Origin: Chloroflexota bacterium | Lineage (GTDB): Bacteria > Chloroflexota > Dehalococcoidia > JACVQG01 | Assembly (NCBI GenBank): GCA_016210545.1 | Contig: JACQTY010000027.1 | Coordinates: forward strand, 1 to 40,640 | Length of the DNA stretch: 40,640 nucleotides | Direction of reading: 5' to 3' | Shown here: piece after piece, positions 1 through 13,380 of the stretch | How the letters are laid out: each line of letters opens with the position of its first letter | Numbering within the stretch: position 1 is the stretch's first letter | Notes under the pieces: model-generated | The model's database searches: none | What the model saw: only the letters and a program-made list of their open reading frames with translations | What the model was told of the DNA's origin: nothing | Position numbers and translations under genes: made by a program

Positions 1-995
1 CCCTTGGTGTATCCCTTCGCCCTCTGGGCTACCTCCACCCCTGCCGGGATGGAAAAAGCGTGGATCATGCTGCCGATGACAGCCAGGTAAAAGAAATAGC
101 TGGTGTTCAGGATGCGGTCGGCGGTGTGCAAGCCCGGGTCCACCAGGAGATGGTGGATCGACCCGAGGTTGATGAACAGCATGTAAAGCAAGAAAGCCAT
201 TCGGGAAAGCTTCTCATTGACAGGCTTGGCCCCCACTGTGAGAGTGCTCAAGGCGTACCAGATCGAGACCATGGCAGCCAGGTTCACCTGTTGAGCCGAA
301 TGGCCAAAGGACCAAAAGAACACCCGGTAGGCCCCGGGATCGTAGGTCGGAAAGATTCCCAGGGACCAAAACAAAGCAGGTACGAAAGTGATAACTCCGC
401 CCACCAGGGTAAACACGGCGATCACAGCGGCAGCCATCAGGCCATACGTAAACAAGGGTAACGAACCTTCATATCGCCGCTCGACCTTGGCCACCACCAG
501 GCTGGCAAAGAATATGCCCACCGCTACGAAGGCCCCTGCGGCAAAGAACACGACCCCCAAATAGTACAGGGGGTGAGCCTTCAACGGGACGTAAGCCGTG
601 AACATCACTGTGGCGCGCCCGGTGAGCACCATAACGTCGGCCATGATGGCGCCGATTAGCATGAGGGCGAACGCCAGCCAGCCCAGCGCTGGCTTGGGCA
701 AACGGGAATTGAGGACTACGGCTCCCCCGAAATAAAGCCCGGCTACCTCGAAGAACACGATCCAGAAGACCAACATGGTCATGCCGTGCGCGCTAGTCAG
801 CCGGTAATACCAGTCTGCAGGCAGGAGGTGGACAGCCTCCCAGCGGGTGAGCGCTATGAGTAGAGCCATGATACCGCCCAGAGTCAGCATGACCACGGCG
901 GTCACGGCGTTGGCGATGATAAGCTTCTCCGCTCGCAGGTGGACCTTAAGTCCAGTTACCGGACACGTTCGGAAAGCCAGTTGCTGCGTTGCCAT
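1..995 (-). CDS. Heme-copper oxidase superfamily subunit I, NO-reductase-like active site (partial)
   Basis: This gene is not in the ORF track. It is open at the left edge, so only the first 331 residues are visible. It starts at ATG 995, seven bases after the subunit II stop, with AAGGAG inside the end of the upstream gene. The protein has many membrane helices. His70 in a SAHGMTM motif fits a low-spin heme ligand. His232 (FGHSAQQV) and the pair His281-His282 (GSIHHLL) fit the three CuB ligands. In O2-reducing A/B-family enzymes the CuB histidine is followed at +4 by a cross-linked tyrosine (HPEVY); here +4 is Gln236. Members without that tyrosine include nitric oxide reductases, and CuA-linked ones are known (eNOR-like). 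With a NirK-like gene next door I infer a quinol- or cytochrome-fed NO reductase, but a divergent O2 reductase is not excluded. Confidence 0.85.
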   Translation of the reverse strand, partial: MATQQLAFRTCPVTGLKVHLRAEKLIIANAVTAVVMLTLGGIMALLIALTRWEAVHLLPADWYYRLTSAHGMTMLVFWIVFFEVAGLYFGGAVVLNSRLPKPALGWLAFALMLIGAIMADVMVLTGRATVMFTAYVPLKAHPLYYLGVVFFAAGAFVAVGIFFASLVVAKVERRYEGSLPLFTYGLMAAAVIAVFTLVGGVITFVPALFWSLGIFPTYDPGAYRVFFWSFGHSAQQVNLAAMVSIWYALSTLTVGAKPVNEKLSRMAFLLYMLFINLGSIHHLLVDPGLHTADRILNTSYFFYLAVIGSMIHAFSIPAGVEVAQRAKGYTK

Positions 996-1001
996 CCTGG
1001 A

Positions 1002-1544
1002 CTACTCCTTCACGATTATTTTGCCGGTCATCGTGTGATGACCAAGGCCACAGAATTCATTACACACAATATAGAAGTCTCCGGACTCAGCAGGCGTAAG
1101 CGTTATTACGTAATCGTATTCGGGGAGAGCTTGGAAGTTCATGTTCAGCGGCGCTTTCGCTGACTGTAGAGAGAAGCCATGCTGAACGTCAACCGAGGAC
1201 AGGTGGACTCGATATGTCTGGCCTTTCTTGAGTTCCAGAATAGGGTACCACTGGAACGTGCGGCCCATAAGGTAGACGTCACTGCCGCCCGGAGGGCTGA
1301 CGACAGGCAGACCGCCTTCTGTCCTCACCTGATATTTCTGGACAAAGGCGTTGGTAAGCTGAGTGTACTGGGTCGTAGATATCCTGTAGGTCTCGGTCGG
1401 CGTGTCCTGCCTGGCGGCCGCGCCCCAAACGATCATCATGAAGAACATGACCACCGCCCAGAATATGGCTATGCCTAGCCATATCTTTTCCTCTTTGCCC
1501 AGTGGTTTCCACCATATCCGCTCGGGAGAAGCTAGTGTGCTCAT
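1002..1544 (-). CDS. Cytochrome oxidase subunit II-like protein with CuA site
   Basis: This 180-aa protein has one N-terminal helix (about residues 21-41) and then a periplasmic cupredoxin domain. The complete CuA ligand set is visible: His122, Cys161, Glu163, Cys165, His169 and Met172 in CNEFCGLGHHTM. It would accept electrons from a soluble donor and pass them to the hemes of the downstream subunit I. The single helix and short length match ba3/eNOR-type subunit II rather than the long aa3 type. The ATG at 1544 has an AGAGGA Shine-Dalgarno sequence. The stop codon overlaps the ribosome-binding site of subunit I, so the two are translationally coupled. Confidence 0.93.
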   Translation of the reverse strand: MSTLASPERIWWKPLGKEEKIWLGIAIFWAVVMFFMMIVWGAAARQDTPTETYRISTTQYTQLTNAFVQKYQVRTEGGLPVVSPPGGSDVYLMGRTFQWYPILELKKGQTYRVHLSSVDVQHGFSLQSAKAPLNMNFQALPEYDYVITLTPAESGDFYIVCNEFCGLGHHTMTGKIIVKE

Positions 1545-1556
1545 CTCTATCCTCTC

Positions 1557-1727
1557 TTACTTCCACACCGGGACATTGGCCAGGTCAAGCATTGTCCAGA
1601 GGAGATACAGCAACGATGGTACAGCCACTCCCAGGGTCAGCATCAAAAAGACATCGTCCAAGAATATCTGCCCGTAAGGTACTCGCTCCTCGGTTGGGGT
1701 CTTGTCAGACCGTCCTGATTCAGGCAT
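1557..1727 (-). CDS. Small single-helix oxidase-associated subunit (56 aa)
   Basis: This ORF is too short for the supplied track. The ATG at 1727 is preceded by GGGGGA at good spacing and the frame runs 56 codons to TAA. The N-terminal third is hydrophilic and acidic (MPESGRSDKTPTEER), followed by one hydrophobic helix at about residues 26-46 and a short VPVWK tail. It ends 13 bases before the CuA subunit start and is first in the three-gene oxidase operon. Size and topology resemble the one-helix subunit IIa of ba3-type oxidases. The identification rests on position and topology, not on a specific motif. Confidence 0.7.
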   Translation of the reverse strand: MPESGRSDKTPTEERVPYGQIFLDDVFLMLTLGVAVPSLLYLLWTMLDLANVPVWK

Positions 1728-1794
1728 ATTTGGCTCCCCCTTTTAGATTTTTTGTTGCCAACGGCATTATCAGGCTTGGGCGGCATCGAGCACA

Positions 1795-1808
1795 GTGACT
1801 TTTGTCAC
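1795..1808. promoter_or_regulatory. CRP/FNR-type operator candidate GTGAC-N4-GTCAC
   Basis: There is a perfect five-base dyad with a four-base spacer, equivalent to the CRP core GTGA-N6-TCAC. It lies 68 bases upstream of the first oxidase-operon start codon. A Crp/Fnr-family regulator is encoded 2.3 kb away and diverges from this module, so it is the natural candidate ligand. Binding is inferred. Confidence 0.4.
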
Positions 1809-1952
1809 ATGACCGCAACATGGCCCGAGCAAACACGCTACCTGCCGGGACAGCAAGACGGGAGAATGGAGGAAATGGCGTAGACAAGAAGAGGAGATAA
1901 ACTACTATACTACTTAAACCATTTCCTGGCTTTTGTCAATAGGCAAAGGCAA

Positions 1953-2010
1953 CCAAAATCCGCCGCCCGTTCAAGCTCACGAAACGAACAGTTATTTCAC
2001 CTACGTGGTG
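1953..2010 (+). repeat. Half copy of a 103-bp palindromic repeat (other copy 40373-40475)
   Basis: It begins CCAAAATCCGCCGCC and ends in a small hairpin, CACCtacgtGGTG. Aligned without gaps to the reverse complement of the right-hand arm of the copy at 40373-40475, I count 43 identities in 58 positions. The second arm expected after the central hairpin is not recognisable here, so this copy is truncated or decayed. Confidence 0.6.
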
Positions 2011-2101
2011 CTCGACTACGACCGTCTTCCGCTCCCGAAGAGCACCTAAGAGCCGCTCATCAACCCCCTAAATCCCCCAATCATGAGGGACTTTGGAATC
2101 T

Positions 2102-2145
2102 GTCCCGACAAGTCGGGAAGACCCCTGTCCCCGATTTATCGGGGA
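2102..2145. repeat. Pair of short palindromes (TCCCGA / TCCCCGAT type)
   Basis: GTCCCGA-caag-TCGGGA (2102-2118) is followed by TCCCCGAT-tt-ATCGGGGA (2128-2145). The first resembles GTCCCGA-cgaa-TCGGGAC at 24633-24650 and the looser ATCCCGA/GCGGGAT near 19860, so this is a small dispersed palindrome family. No T-run follows, so neither is a clear intrinsic terminator. Confidence 0.55.
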
Positions 2146-2377
2146 ACCTCTTTCCCCTCACCTCGTCCAGGGCCAAAGGGCATCTTGATGGTGGATTACG
2201 GGCGACAATAGAGACCCGCCAATAGTGAAAATGGTCTGTCGTCGTTGCGAGCCAAAGCCTATTTCCCTGGATAGCTCCAGCGCCCTTTCTCACGCCTTTA
2301 GATGGCGGATACGGGACAAATGCTATCGGGCAGCCTCTGCAAGGCCGACTATGAAAGGCCGTCATTTGAGGTTGTAG

Positions 2378-3895
2378 CTATTCATATACCTTGACCCTGG
2401 CCTTCATATAGGGGTGGATGGAACAGAAATATTCGTATTCCCCGGCCTTCGTGAACTTGAAAGTGAATTGACCGGCGTGGTTTAGCAGGGGCGATGCGAA
2501 GGTATGGGCAGCATCGACAGCCACAGCGTTGTGCTTGCCAGTGCGCTCACCGTCCAGGAAATCAAACACCTCCTCATTGACCCATGTCACGTCGGTACCG
2601 ACAGGCACTTCCGCTATTTTGGGCCAGAAGCTGTTGCCCACCATCTGAATCTGCACCTTGTCTCCGCTGCGGTACCGCATCGGCCTGTCCAGGTCAGCGC
2701 TTCCGATTTCAAAGGGAGCTACCACGCGGGCAGGGGAGGCGAGGACCAGCTTAGTAGGCCCATCGCTGCGCACCTCCTTTGCCTGAGGAGCGTTCTTGCT
2801 GGAACTGATGACGCCTATGGCGCCCTTTGCCGCCTGGGTGCCAAAAGCGTGACTCACCAGCAGGAATGGCCCCTCGGCGGGTACCCGCCAGTCGACTACC
2901 CAGGAATCAGTGGGACCGGCGATGGCCGATTGGGTACCGACCATGATGTTACCTGGGTTCCCACCATAGTAGGCGTACTCCCAGATCGCACCCACCGCGT
3001 GGAAGGTAGCAACGAGGTTGGGGCCAACATTCAGGTAGTAGAAGCGGATGTAATCGCCTGGCCGTGTGGTGATGGGTTCGGTTACATAGCGAAAGTTATA
3101 GCCATTGAACATCACATAGAGGGGGCGTCCGTCGAAGAAGTCTCGGCCGTTGGAGTAAACCTCCTGCTGGAGGATGTAAACCCTGGTATCGGGGGTTTTC
3201 CCTAGCTGCTGTTCGAGTTGGTATTTCTTTGTTTTAGGCTCAACTACGAACATGCCAAACATCCCACCCATCGTATGGGTCATGATGCCATGGCCACCGG
3301 GAGCACAGTGGTACATGAAAACACCCGGGAAGTCGGCCCTGAAGGTCAGTGTCGCCGTTTTCCCAGGCGCTATGTTGCCCGTGAAGAGCGACGTCTGTGT
3401 GTTGGCAGCGTGCATCGAAAGGCCGTGGGCCACGGTATCCTCGTTCCGCACGGTTATCGCTACGGTGTCGCCCTCATCCACTGCCAGAAGAGGTCCAGGG
3501 CTTTTGCCGTCGAAGGTAAATGCTTTGAAAGTTACCCCTTCGTCAATCGTCAAGTCCGCTTTCTTGGTTACGAGTTCAAATTTCTTCACCGGTGCTGATG
3601 GCGAGGGTAGCGCCGTCGGGTCGGCAAGGGGTTTAGGCACAGCCCCCGCTATCGCTCTTTCCACTAGAGCCGATATCTCCTGCGCGCTTGGCGCTTTACC
3701 AGGAGATCCGGCGGGCCCTTCAGACCCTCGTTGGCCCGCCGGCCCGGCTGCGCCTGCCGGTCCTGGCGCTCCGCCTGGCCCCGGGGCGCCGGCCTGGCCT
3801 GGCGGCCCCACCGGCCCCTGGGGACCCTGCGGCCCAGCACAGGCAACAAGCAACGGGACAAGCACGACTAGCGACAGCCATTTGAGATGACGCAT
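2378..3895 (-). CDS. NirK-like multicopper lipoprotein with collagen-like linker and C-terminal cupredoxin
   Basis: A 505-aa lipoprotein: the signal ends in LLVAC (Cys19), then about 45 residues of Gly-X-Y collagen-like repeat, two NirK-type cupredoxin domains (about 105-370) and a plastocyanin-like domain (about 405-505). Type 1 Cu ligands are His157, Cys197, His207 and Met212. Type 2 ligands are His162, His196 and His349. The third domain keeps His455, Cys491, His494 and Met497, so it looks like a tethered electron donor. Compared with Achromobacter NirK, catalytic Asp98 corresponds to Ser160 (HGLSMH for HNVDFH) and His255 to Ile304 (HAVGAI for HLIGGH). Both proton-relay residues are therefore missing. 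Nitrite reduction to NO is the family role; another activity is possible. ATG 3895 has AAGGAGG. Confidence 0.85.
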
Positions 3896-3957: not shown

Positions 3958-3973
3958 TGTCATTTGCGTGACA
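3958..3973. promoter_or_regulatory. Perfect dyad TGTCA-N6-TGACA between nirK-like gene and Crp/Fnr gene
   Basis: TGTCAtttgcgTGACA lies in the divergent intergenic region, 62 bases from the NirK-like start and 92 from the regulator start. An overlapping GTGAcaaaaaGCAC (3968-3981) matches the CRP core in seven of eight positions. On the minus strand the dyad centre lies about 40 bases upstream of a plausible start site following TAGAAA. That is the usual position for Crp/Fnr activation. The arrangement fits control of both divergent units by the adjacent regulator. Confidence 0.45.
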
Positions 3974-4065
3974 AAAAGCACAAACTATGATAGACTTAGT
4001 TCCGGTCTTCAGAGGATTCGCAACAGTCGAGACAGGTCACTTCCCGCTCAGTCGAAGGAGTGATC

Positions 4066-4776
4066 ATGCAACCCGAACCGAAGCAAGCAGACCATAACGC
4101 CACCGGCCAGCCCACAGCCCTGAGCGCGGTGAAGCTTGTCCCCTGCTTCTGCTGCCTCGCACCTCAACTGCTCGATAGGGCTGTCAGCGCCACGACCGTG
4201 AGGCGCTATCAGAAGGGAGAGGCCCTCTTCCACCGGAACGAACCATGCACCGGGTTGTTTGTTCTGCGAAGGGGAGTGGTCAAACTGTTCCGCCTTTCCC
4301 CTGACGGCCGCGAGACCACCGTCCGCGTAGCCCACCGCGGCGAATGCCTCGACTGCGTCCCCCTCCTGGACGAAGGCCCCAATCCCATAACAGCCCAGGC
4401 CCTGACGGACGCGGAGGCCGATCTGCTACCCAGGGATGGTTTTCGGTGGCTGTTGGACCAGGATCCCCGGTTGGCGCAACACATATCCCGCATGCTCGCT
4501 GTCAGACTGCGCTATTTCCTCACCCGCATAGATGACTTCGGGAGCGACATAGAAAAACGGATGGACAGACTGTTACTCGATCTGGCCAGGCCCGACGAAA
4601 GCAAGACGCCCGTAGTCCCGTTTAGCCAGGAGGAGCTCGCTTGCCTGGTAGGGGTCTCCCGGCAGAGGCTGAACATGCATTTGGGCCAGCTCCAGAAGCG
4701 CGGCATCATCACGAAGAGCCGCTGTGAGATTCGTGTTGCCGATTCTAGCCTTCTGGAGGAGTCTGTGGCAGAATAG
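4066..4776 (+). CDS. Crp/Fnr-family transcriptional regulator
   Basis: A cNMP-binding beta-roll (about residues 35-125), a dimerisation helix, and a C-terminal Crp-type winged helix-turn-helix with recognition region VGVSRQRLNMHLGQL. The track begins at GTG 4060, but GAAGGAG at 4054-4060 would overlap that codon. The ATG at 4066 has correct spacing, giving 236 aa. A short N-terminal cysteine group (CFCCL, residues 27-30 from this start) and a second pair (ECLDC, 94-97) are visible. The spacing does not match the classical FNR cluster, so Fe-S sensing is only a possibility. It diverges from the NirK-like gene and probably regulates the N-oxide module. Three isolates of this general layout are NnrR/DNR, FNR and CRP subfamilies; the sequence alone does not decide among them. 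Confidence 0.9.
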   Translation: MQPEPKQADHNATGQPTALSAVKLVPCFCCLAPQLLDRAVSATTVRRYQKGEALFHRNEPCTGLFVLRRGVVKLFRLSPDGRETTVRVAHRGECLDCVPLLDEGPNPITAQALTDAEADLLPRDGFRWLLDQDPRLAQHISRMLAVRLRYFLTRIDDFGSDIEKRMDRLLLDLARPDESKTPVVPFSQEELACLVGVSRQRLNMHLGQLQKRGIITKSRCEIRVADSSLLEESVAE

Positions 4777-11154: not shown

Positions 11155-12645
11155 CTACCCGTTGGCCGGCGCCTTCTGAGGTCTGAACTCCAGCAGCAGG
11201 ACGTGCTGAGTGCGCTCCGTTAGCTTTACGATATCGGCCAGGCGGTAACCCACTACCCACAGCACGCCCAGAGGTGAACATACCACAGGCACCCGGTCTC
11301 TCCAGCCCCGCGGGACTTTCAAGTCCACCATCAAGTCCTGGAGTTTCTTTTCGCCGCCCAATCCCAGGGGATAGAACCGGTCTCCGGGCCGGCGGCTTCT
11401 CACTGACAGCCCTCGGCCAGCGGCCTCTAAGTCCATGCATGCGGATAACGCCTCAGACGGACACCGCGCCATTCCCGCACCCCGGTCCGCCGCCTCACTC
11501 GGATCAACCACAGTAGCCAATACAGTCCAGCCGGGCAATTGGGTTTCACCAGGGACCATCAGCGGGTATTCCCCGGGAATCGCCGGGTAGGGACAGGGGA
11601 CGTGGTCCCGGCCGCGCTGCCCGAGACCGACAGTCTCATAGCTTGTCCAGAACACCAGCCCGCCCGGCAAGTCCAGACTCGATCCCACGGGACGGCTCAG
11701 AGAGGACAACATGTCTTCGATATGCACCGACTCGATATCCTGGGGATTGCCCCGGACGCGTTCCCAGGCTTTCAACAGGAGGTGTTTCTGCAACGGGGGG
11801 GCCATGCATTCCAGCCGTTTCCTGTCCATGACCAGGCCTTCAGCCCGCTCCTCGCGGACTATCTGGGGCCACTCCTGAGCAACTAGCTGGTCAAAGAACT
11901 CGACAACTTCGGCAGCAGCCTTTCCCATCCGCAACAGGGCCGTGTCCACGGAGGGGTTGAGAGTCTCAAGTTTAGGCATGACCTGTCGCAGACGGTTCCG
12001 CAGGAAAGCCGGCGAATAGTTGGAGACGTCCACCCGCGGCAACAGGCCGTGATCAGCGCAGTACCTGGAAGTATCCTGGCGACTTACCTCCAGCAGGGGC
12101 CTAACGACCAGCAGAGAGGCTCCCCCATTGCCGCCCCAGCGGGACAGCGGTTGCATGCCCCGCAGCCCGCGAAGCCCGGCGCCCCTCAGGATGTGCAGCA
12201 GGATGCTTTCCACCTGGTCGTCCAGGGTGTGCCCCACAGCTACCCGCGAAGCGCCCACGACCGCTGCCACCTGAGCAAAGAACCCATATCTGACTTCTCG
12301 GGCTGCTTCCTCCAGCGACTCACCATGTTGGGTCCGGTGTGCCAGCACATCGCTGCGTTCCACGGTACAGGCAAGACCCATGTCTCGCGCAAGCCTTGAC
12401 ACGTAGGCGGCATCCGCTTCTGCCTCGGCCCCCCGCAGACCATGATTCAGGTGGGCGACGTGCAGCCTTATCCCCAGGCTCTCCCGCATCCCGGCAAGCA
12501 GGTGCAGGAGGCACACCGAGTCCGGTCCGCCGGATACCCCGACCAACACTATCTCTTCGGGAGCCATGAGGCCAAACTTCCCAATATAGCCAAGCACACG
12601 CCTGGAAAGACAGGGGTCGTACTTCATATGTCCCATCAGAGCCAT
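11155..12645 (-). CDS. tilS: tRNA(Ile)-lysidine synthase
   Basis: This enzyme attaches lysine to C34 of the AUA-reading tRNA-Ile. The 496-aa protein has the PP-loop SGGPDS (38-43), the HLNHGLRG block that follows it in TilS, a middle TilS domain and a C-terminal TilS_C domain (SVRSRRPGDRFYPLGLGGEKKLQDLMVD). The start codon is uncertain: ATG 12645 has no clear ribosome-binding site, while the in-frame ATG seven codons in has GATGGGAC nearby. Confidence 0.94.
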   Translation of the reverse strand: MALMGHMKYDPCLSRRVLGYIGKFGLMAPEEIVLVGVSGGPDSVCLLHLLAGMRESLGIRLHVAHLNHGLRGAEAEADAAYVSRLARDMGLACTVERSDVLAHRTQHGESLEEAAREVRYGFFAQVAAVVGASRVAVGHTLDDQVESILLHILRGAGLRGLRGMQPLSRWGGNGGASLLVVRPLLEVSRQDTSRYCADHGLLPRVDVSNYSPAFLRNRLRQVMPKLETLNPSVDTALLRMGKAAAEVVEFFDQLVAQEWPQIVREERAEGLVMDRKRLECMAPPLQKHLLLKAWERVRGNPQDIESVHIEDMLSSLSRPVGSSLDLPGGLVFWTSYETVGLGQRGRDHVPCPYPAIPGEYPLMVPGETQLPGWTVLATVVDPSEAADRGAGMARCPSEALSACMDLEAAGRGLSVRSRRPGDRFYPLGLGGEKKLQDLMVDLKVPRGWRDRVPVVCSPLGVLWVVGYRLADIVKLTERTQHVLLLEFRPQKAPANG

Positions 12646-12696
12646 TATATCAGGCAGACACCGCCGGACGTAGTGGCCTGGATGTTGCAGTTGCGT

Positions 12697-12725
12697 TTGT
12701 ATCTACCGTAAGTCCATGTTACAAT
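12697..12725 (+). promoter_or_regulatory. Candidate promoter for the secreted 128-aa protein
   Basis: TTGTAT (12697-12702), 17 bases, TACAAT (12720-12725). The -10 is good and the -35 weak. The predicted transcript begins about 40 bases before the gene's GGAGG. Confidence 0.4.
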
Positions 12726-12771
12726 ATGGTAAAGATTGGCGTTAGCAATATAAATAGACGGAGGCTCACCA

Positions 12772-13158
12772 ATGAAGAACACTTTCCTCATGGTCGCTAT
12801 TCTGGCGCTGGCCATCGTCTCCGGGCCAGCAGTGCAATCCCAGGTTGTCGGCGCCCCGACTGTCCAAATCGTGTCCCCCATGCCCGGGGCAATGGTGATG
12901 GGTCCTGACGTCACCTTCACCTTTCAGGTGACCAACTTCGTTCTGGCCCCGGCCGAGATAGGCATGCCGCCGATACCCGGTCACGGACACTTCCACGTTC
13001 TCCTCGACGGTACCCTGGTGGGCATTGTGGGAGTGGGAACGCACGCCTTGATGGGGTTAATGCCGGGGATGCACACGGTGAAAGTAGAACTGCACCAGAA
13101 TAATCATCTGCCCCTGACACCCCCGGTCGAGGCGTCAGTCACCTTCACGGTAATGTAG
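12772..13158 (+). CDS. Small secreted protein, DUF4399-like
   Basis: A 128-aa protein with an N-terminal signal peptide (about 1-23, ending AVQSQ) and one beta-rich domain. The pattern GHGHFHVLLDGT followed by GMHTVKVELHQNNHLP and a final VTFTVM strand resembles DUF4399 extracytoplasmic proteins, which have a similar HFH/HHHLL strand and a PGKHTLxLxLxDxxH segment. Function is unknown. The His-rich strand could bind a metal, but that is a guess. Start ATG 12772 has GGAGG. It is probably a single-gene unit between its own promoter and the hairpin at 13176. Confidence 0.7.
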   Translation: MKNTFLMVAILALAIVSGPAVQSQVVGAPTVQIVSPMPGAMVMGPDVTFTFQVTNFVLAPAEIGMPPIPGHGHFHVLLDGTLVGIVGVGTHALMGLMPGMHTVKVELHQNNHLPLTPPVEASVTFTVM

Positions 13159-13175
13159 GCGTATCCCACGGATGA

Positions 13176-13207
13176 GTTATCCGCCCTGACGCGTTGGGGC
13201 GGATAAC
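13176..13207 (+). terminator. Perfect 11-bp stem hairpin downstream of the secreted protein gene
   Basis: GTTATCCGCCC and GGGCGGATAAC form a perfect 11-bp stem with a 10-base loop, 17 bases after the stop codon. The following bases are only ttcccc, so this is a transcript-end or stabilising hairpin rather than a textbook intrinsic terminator. Confidence 0.55.
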
Positions 13208-13298
13208 TTCCCCGTAGATCCATCAGACTGCTTTGGCGCTAATGTCACTTGAAGTGCGGCCCTATGAGCGTGCGTCTTGCCCATTCCTCCCCCTTCCT

Positions 13299-13327
13299 TT
13301 GACACTCATACAGCACAATGTTAATAT
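13299..13327 (+). promoter_or_regulatory. Sigma70-type promoter for the CNNM/CorC gene
   Basis: TTGACA (13299-13304), a 17-base spacer and TAATAT (13322-13327). The expected start site is about 45 bases before GTG 13381. Confidence 0.65.
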
Positions 13328-13380
13328 GATTCCAGAATGCGGCCCGTCTTGCGCGACCGCAATCGCTCCCAGGAGTAGGT

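Follow-up and report, generated by a model that had tools for sequence, protein, structure and literature searches.

Gene content of the locus

The window, meaning the whole stretch of DNA analysed here (40,640 nucleotides), comprises positions 1-40,640 of contig JACQTY010000027.1 in assembly GCA_016210545.1 (Chloroflexota; Dehalococcoidia; JACVQG01). The contig is native to the genome, as judged by a neighbouring gene whose 519-amino-acid product is 79% identical in the same genus. It carries a nirK-like gene, with the Shine-Dalgarno-like sequence AAGGAGGAG immediately 5' of its ATG, situated between eNOR-type genes and a divergent regulator gene (Table 1). From the N- to the C-terminus, the encoded protein consists of a lipobox, a collagen-like stalk, a linker, the NirK core and an amicyanin/plastocyanin-like cupredoxin. 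The palindrome TGTCATTTGCGTGACA, located between the divergent nirK and regulator genes, is the sole exact match within the window, while about one match is expected by chance when one mismatch is allowed, making it a possible, weak candidate for the regulator site.

Table 1. Features of the nirK-like gene and its surroundings in the window.
Feature	Position	Strand	Basis
eNOR subunit I, first 331 residues, with GHSAQQ; truncated by the contig end	1..995	-	Domain matches; remainder on contig C91
eNOR subunit II, cupredoxin with CuA motif CNEFCGLGHHTM	1002..1544	-	Domain matches
One-helix protein of 56 aa, ahead of eNOR subunit II	1557..1727	-	Same strand as nirK
nirK-like gene, 505 aa, three-domain (TsNirK-type)	2378-3895	-	Single open frame; best solved match 6HBE
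Domain III cupredoxin, about residues 414-505; T1CuC ligands H455, C491, H494, M497; bridge Glu450	2381..2656	-	Domain matches, alignments
NirK core, domains I and II, residues 102-366	2798..3592	-	Domain and structure matches
Ile304 codon, equivalent to AfNirK His260; supposed HisCAT position in the initial annotation	2984..2986	-	Alignments
His299 codon, HisCAT, present (AfNirK His255, TsNirK His216)	2999..3001	-	Alignments
Met212 codon, T1CuN axial ligand (TsNirK Gln130)	3260..3262	-	Alignments
Ser160 codon, SerCAT (AfNirK Asp98, TsNirK Ser78)	3416..3418	-	Alignments
Collagen-like Gly-X-Y stalk, residues 21-67, right behind the lipobox (LVAC, Cys19)	3695..3835	-	Pfam Collagen; sequence
Palindrome TGTCATTTGCGTGACA, candidate regulator site	3958..3973		Weak
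CRP/FNR-family regulator, divergent from nirK	4060..4776	+	Domain matches

Copper ligands and catalytic residues

As the initial annotation had claimed, all copper ligands are kept. The alignments place the His-Cys-His-Met set of the core type 1 site at H157, C197, H207 and M212 and the type 2 ligands at H162, H196 and H349 (His100, His135 and His306 in NirK), and the type 1 set of domain III is likewise complete. The sensing loop, of the form His-X4-His, reads HGLSMH (residues 157-162) and carries Ser160 in place of Asp98, the AspCAT residue. This replacement, also part of the initial annotation, was confirmed by alignment with Ser78 of TsNirK and with seven Asp-type NirKs. Judged by sequence, the nirK-like protein is not a classical Asp-type NirK, and Ser is the rule within the TsNirK group.

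The second proton-relay residue, His255, had been considered replaced by Ile304, but this was due to a misalignment by five residues. HisCAT is present as His299, in the motif TFHAVG, 50 residues ahead of the type 2 ligand His349; in Alcaligenes faecalis NirK, His306 lies 51 residues beyond His255. The Alcaligenes query consisted of NirK fragments confirmed by alignment to the deposited chains, of which only chain positions were used: Asp98 is found at chain position 95 and the first His of RPHLIGGH at 252. Both are shifted by the same 3 positions, which makes the latter residue His255 and the His of GGHGD His260. Ile304 aligns with Ile221 of TsNirK and with His260 of AfNirK, five residues past His255. 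Position 304 is uninformative on catalysis, since six of the seven ordinary NirKs with Asp in the alignment likewise have Ile or Val there. Thus, only one half of the proposed loss of both proton-relay residues stands, AspCAT being replaced by Ser160 while HisCAT is kept.

The window protein matches TsNirK of Thermus scotoductus (6HBE) across all three domains (E 1.9e-156; 58.5% identity over 402 aligned residues). TsNirK was published with SerCAT, a retained HisCAT and a close T1Cu-T1Cu spacing (Opperman et al. 2019, PMC6400189), and its trimer structure, copper content, nitrite turnover and Cu-Cu distances were established by others (PMC6400189). It reduces nitrite with a kcat of 65/s and a Km of 27 uM, its T1CuC and T1CuN are about 14 Å apart, HisCAT is His216, and the structure has a SerCAT-water-HisCAT arrangement and one proton channel (PMC6400189). 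The two proteins share the three-domain order, SerCAT, HisCAT and ValCAT (Ser78, His216 and Val218 in TsNirK; Ser160, His299 and Val301 here), the type 2 ligands (His80, His114 and His267; His162, His196 and His349 here), the T1CuC ligands, the proton-channel residues (Ala116, Gly91 and Asn92; Ala198, Gly173 and Asn174 here) and the Glu of the electron bridge (Glu385; Glu450 here), and Gln322 is also conserved. The channel residues and the bridge Glu hardly vary within the clade; Asp-type NirKs mostly have other residues at these positions. The window protein differs in having Met212 where TsNirK has Gln130 as the axial ligand of T1CuN, Ser323 instead of Thr240, Lys454 instead of Arg389, and an added lipobox and collagen-like stalk. 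With Met rather than Gln at T1CuN, the potential of this site may therefore differ from that of TsNirK.

Two-domain NirKs of the Alcaligenes, Achromobacter and Geobacillus types share the type 1 and type 2 ligands and HisCAT with the window protein, but differ in three respects: AspCAT is present, domain III is missing, and the T1 loop is shorter, without the Gly-Gly insert. HdNir of Hyphomicrobium denitrificans (2DV6) also combines a NirK core with an additional cupredoxin; this domain is, however, located at the N-terminus, about 24 Å from the T1Cu, which is too far (PMC6400189), and it was demonstrated to be incapable of electron transfer (as told in PMC6400189). For the window protein, the idea put forward in the initial annotation that the tethered third cupredoxin could feed electrons internally is supported by the complete type 1 set and the conserved Glu450. 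A structure prediction from a five-sequence alignment gave a pLDDT of 40.5, too poor to measure the T1CuC-T1CuN distance.

The SerCAT clade and its distribution

The relatives aligned were from Fraserbacteria, Acidobacteria, Armatimonadota (a full active site in three, and only its first part in a fourth), a ‘Deltaproteobacterium’, two Methylococcales and Thermus thermophilus. The frame of the Thermus copy L037 is broken ahead of domain III, and only its core was included. Distant NirKs from the window's own class served as a contrast group (L016-L022; L023 and L024 were excluded from the counts). Ser occupies the AspCAT position in all clade members readable there, representing six lineages, and the HisCAT His is invariant in those aligned, while all seven ordinary NirKs have Asp at AspCAT and also possess HisCAT. 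In the tree, the Ser group forms a single clade (100/100 support) on a long stem. Among the readable members, Thermus alone has Gln as the axial ligand of T1CuN; all others, the window protein included, have Met, and the Gln ligand is therefore no mark of the whole SerCAT group. No second clade member was found among 400 sampled genomes of the phylum, which suggests lateral transfer of the SerCAT nirK. The nirK homologue of Methylocucumis oryzae (L013, 8425-9880) is split into two overlapping frames, owing to a frameshift or to an error in sequencing.

Neighbouring eNOR genes and lipoprotein stalks

In subunit I, the Gln of GHSAQQ, four residues after the CuB His, replaces the cross-linked Tyr of oxidases, which is the mark of eNOR, a CuA-containing NO reductase (Schwartz et al. 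2022, PMC8756737), and subunit I is adjoined by a CuA-type subunit II, the second feature defining this family. Unlike in the described eNOR, subunit I is here split over two contigs, and its NO reduction is predicted from sequence. Contig C91 overlaps the start of the window by exactly 134 bases and carries the remainder of subunit I (L055, 13530-14198, minus strand), after which follows a UbiA-family gene (12456-13370, minus strand), possibly encoding a CtaB-like haem O synthase. L055 also contains a gene for a cytochrome bd-like subunit I (553 aa, 1045-2706, minus strand) adjoining one for a protein with two CXXCH motifs (261-1166, minus strand), and such a haem c protein is an unusual partner for a bd-type oxidase. 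The architecture described in the work of Schwartz et al. (2022) on Chloroflexi was considered as a match and rejected, as that work mainly concerns NirS fusions and a different C1-NirK fusion (PMC8756737).

Adjoining nirK and eNOR genes occur in three lineages and in three gene orders. In L012, the order on one strand is small helix protein, subunit II, subunit I and nirK, whereas the eNOR-like genes of Thermus plasmids are divergent from nirK. The eNOR of an Armatimonadota genome is found on a separate contig from nirK, and no eNOR-like gene was detected in the Fraserbacteria and Acidobacteria assemblies searched, which may be incomplete. The proposal that these NirKs track with eNOR-like genes is accordingly supported in part, by adjacency in the three lineages, while half of the assemblies of the relatives have no eNOR next to nirK. 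A small one-helix protein precedes subunit II in the window (1557-1727, minus strand), in L036 (13746-13871, minus strand) and in L012 (about 2451-2603, plus strand); it is found in all three lineages with adjoining nirK and eNOR (window, Thermus and L012) and may represent a third subunit of eNOR that has escaped annotation. In T. scotoductus, nirK is preceded upstream by the ‘cbcBA’ oxidase genes, for which use of NO was guessed (PMC7694296), a guess that is strengthened by the Gln motif and by the recurrence of the pairing in unrelated lineages and three gene orders.

About ten proteins of the genome contain collagen-like stretches, most of them lipoproteins, and in many of these (NirK, L067, L068, L070, L074 and L076) the Gly-X-Y stalk is placed directly behind the lipobox. 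Besides NirK, the redox proteins with such stalks are two c-type cytochromes (L067 and L068) and an MtrC/MtrF-like multihaem cytochrome (L070). None of the other NirK clade members compared has a collagen-like stalk, and a combined-term literature search found no paper, which is weak evidence of novelty.

Proposed function

With the sequence, the ligands, the conserved residues and the gene pairing observed here, the protein is best explained as a lipid-anchored, three-domain copper nitrite reductase of the TsNirK type that would feed NO to the neighbouring eNOR (probability about 0.86), and by analogy the same chemistry as in TsNirK may be inferred. The lipid anchor and the collagen-like spacer would hold NirK on the outer face of a membrane, where a donor would reduce T1CuC in domain III. 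Electrons would then reach T1CuN via His494, a water molecule, Glu450 and His207 and continue across the Cys197-His196 bridge to T2Cu, at which nitrite would be reduced to NO with protons delivered via Ser160, water and His299, a single proton channel being lined by Ala198, Gly173 and Asn174. The neighbouring eNOR may then take up this NO and reduce it to N2O, and the CRP/FNR protein may regulate nirK. The recurring nirK-eNOR pairing supports this route from nitrite via NO to N2O. Models for NarG and NosZ gave nothing above their cut-offs in the 94%-complete genome; the pathway around NirK is therefore partial, with external nitrite as its probable substrate and N2O as its probable end product.

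This same lack of NarG and NosZ matches above the cut-offs, together with the two ordinary oxidases of the genome, would also suit a NirK that mainly serves detoxification of NO or nitrite, or NO signalling, with eNOR acting as a scavenger of NO. The sequence would fit either respiration or detoxification, but eNOR has been modelled with a proton channel, which would suit respiration (PMC8756737), and external nitrite would be usable; we regard a role mainly in detoxification or signalling as possible, though rather unlikely.

The initial annotation favoured another route or another substrate, a reading in which both proton-relay residues are gone and the enzyme acts on NO, hydroxylamine or O2 or uses an unrelated proton route. 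AspCAT is truly Ser, and ordinary NirK is slowed by replacement of Asp98 (cited in PMC6400189), but three alignments identify His299 as HisCAT, and TsNirK, a close relative that shares this Ser, reduces nitrite efficiently (PMC6400189). The question of another route or substrate is largely answered by this 58.5% identical enzyme with its Ser-water-His arrangement, and a loss of both residues appears very improbable. A laccase-like multicopper oxidase, suggested by Pfam matches to Cu-oxidase_3 and Cu-oxidase_2 and by Thermus plasmid records labelled ‘multicopper oxidase’, is hardly credible beside a single set of type 2 His ligands (H162, H196 and H349) at NirK spacing, NirK structures as the best matches, and the NirK model TIGR02376 (Cu_nitrite_red) as top curated family, though below its cut-off (149.9 against 296.3 bits).

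Significance

The reading as a TsNirK-type nitrite reductase removes the claim of HisCAT loss and assigns the protein to a group of enzymes that has been crystallised and is active, so that the initial interpretation is mostly answered by the published work on TsNirK. Two small differences, the stalk and the Met ligand, set this protein apart from TsNirK, and it takes part in a recurring partnership with eNOR. The TsNirK group is extended to members with a Met-ligated T1CuN, which makes it possible to separate by experiment what SerCAT and the Gln ligand each contribute. More speculatively, the three-domain SerCAT NirK and eNOR might constitute a mobile nitrite-to-N2O cassette common to distant phyla, and the occurrence of NirK among stalked redox proteins, with c-type and MtrC-like cytochromes, might reflect a surface electron-transfer layer, a combination that we consider tentative. 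The recurring nirK-eNOR pairing provides a testable function for the ‘cytochrome oxidase’ genes of Thermus, previously only suspected of NO use.
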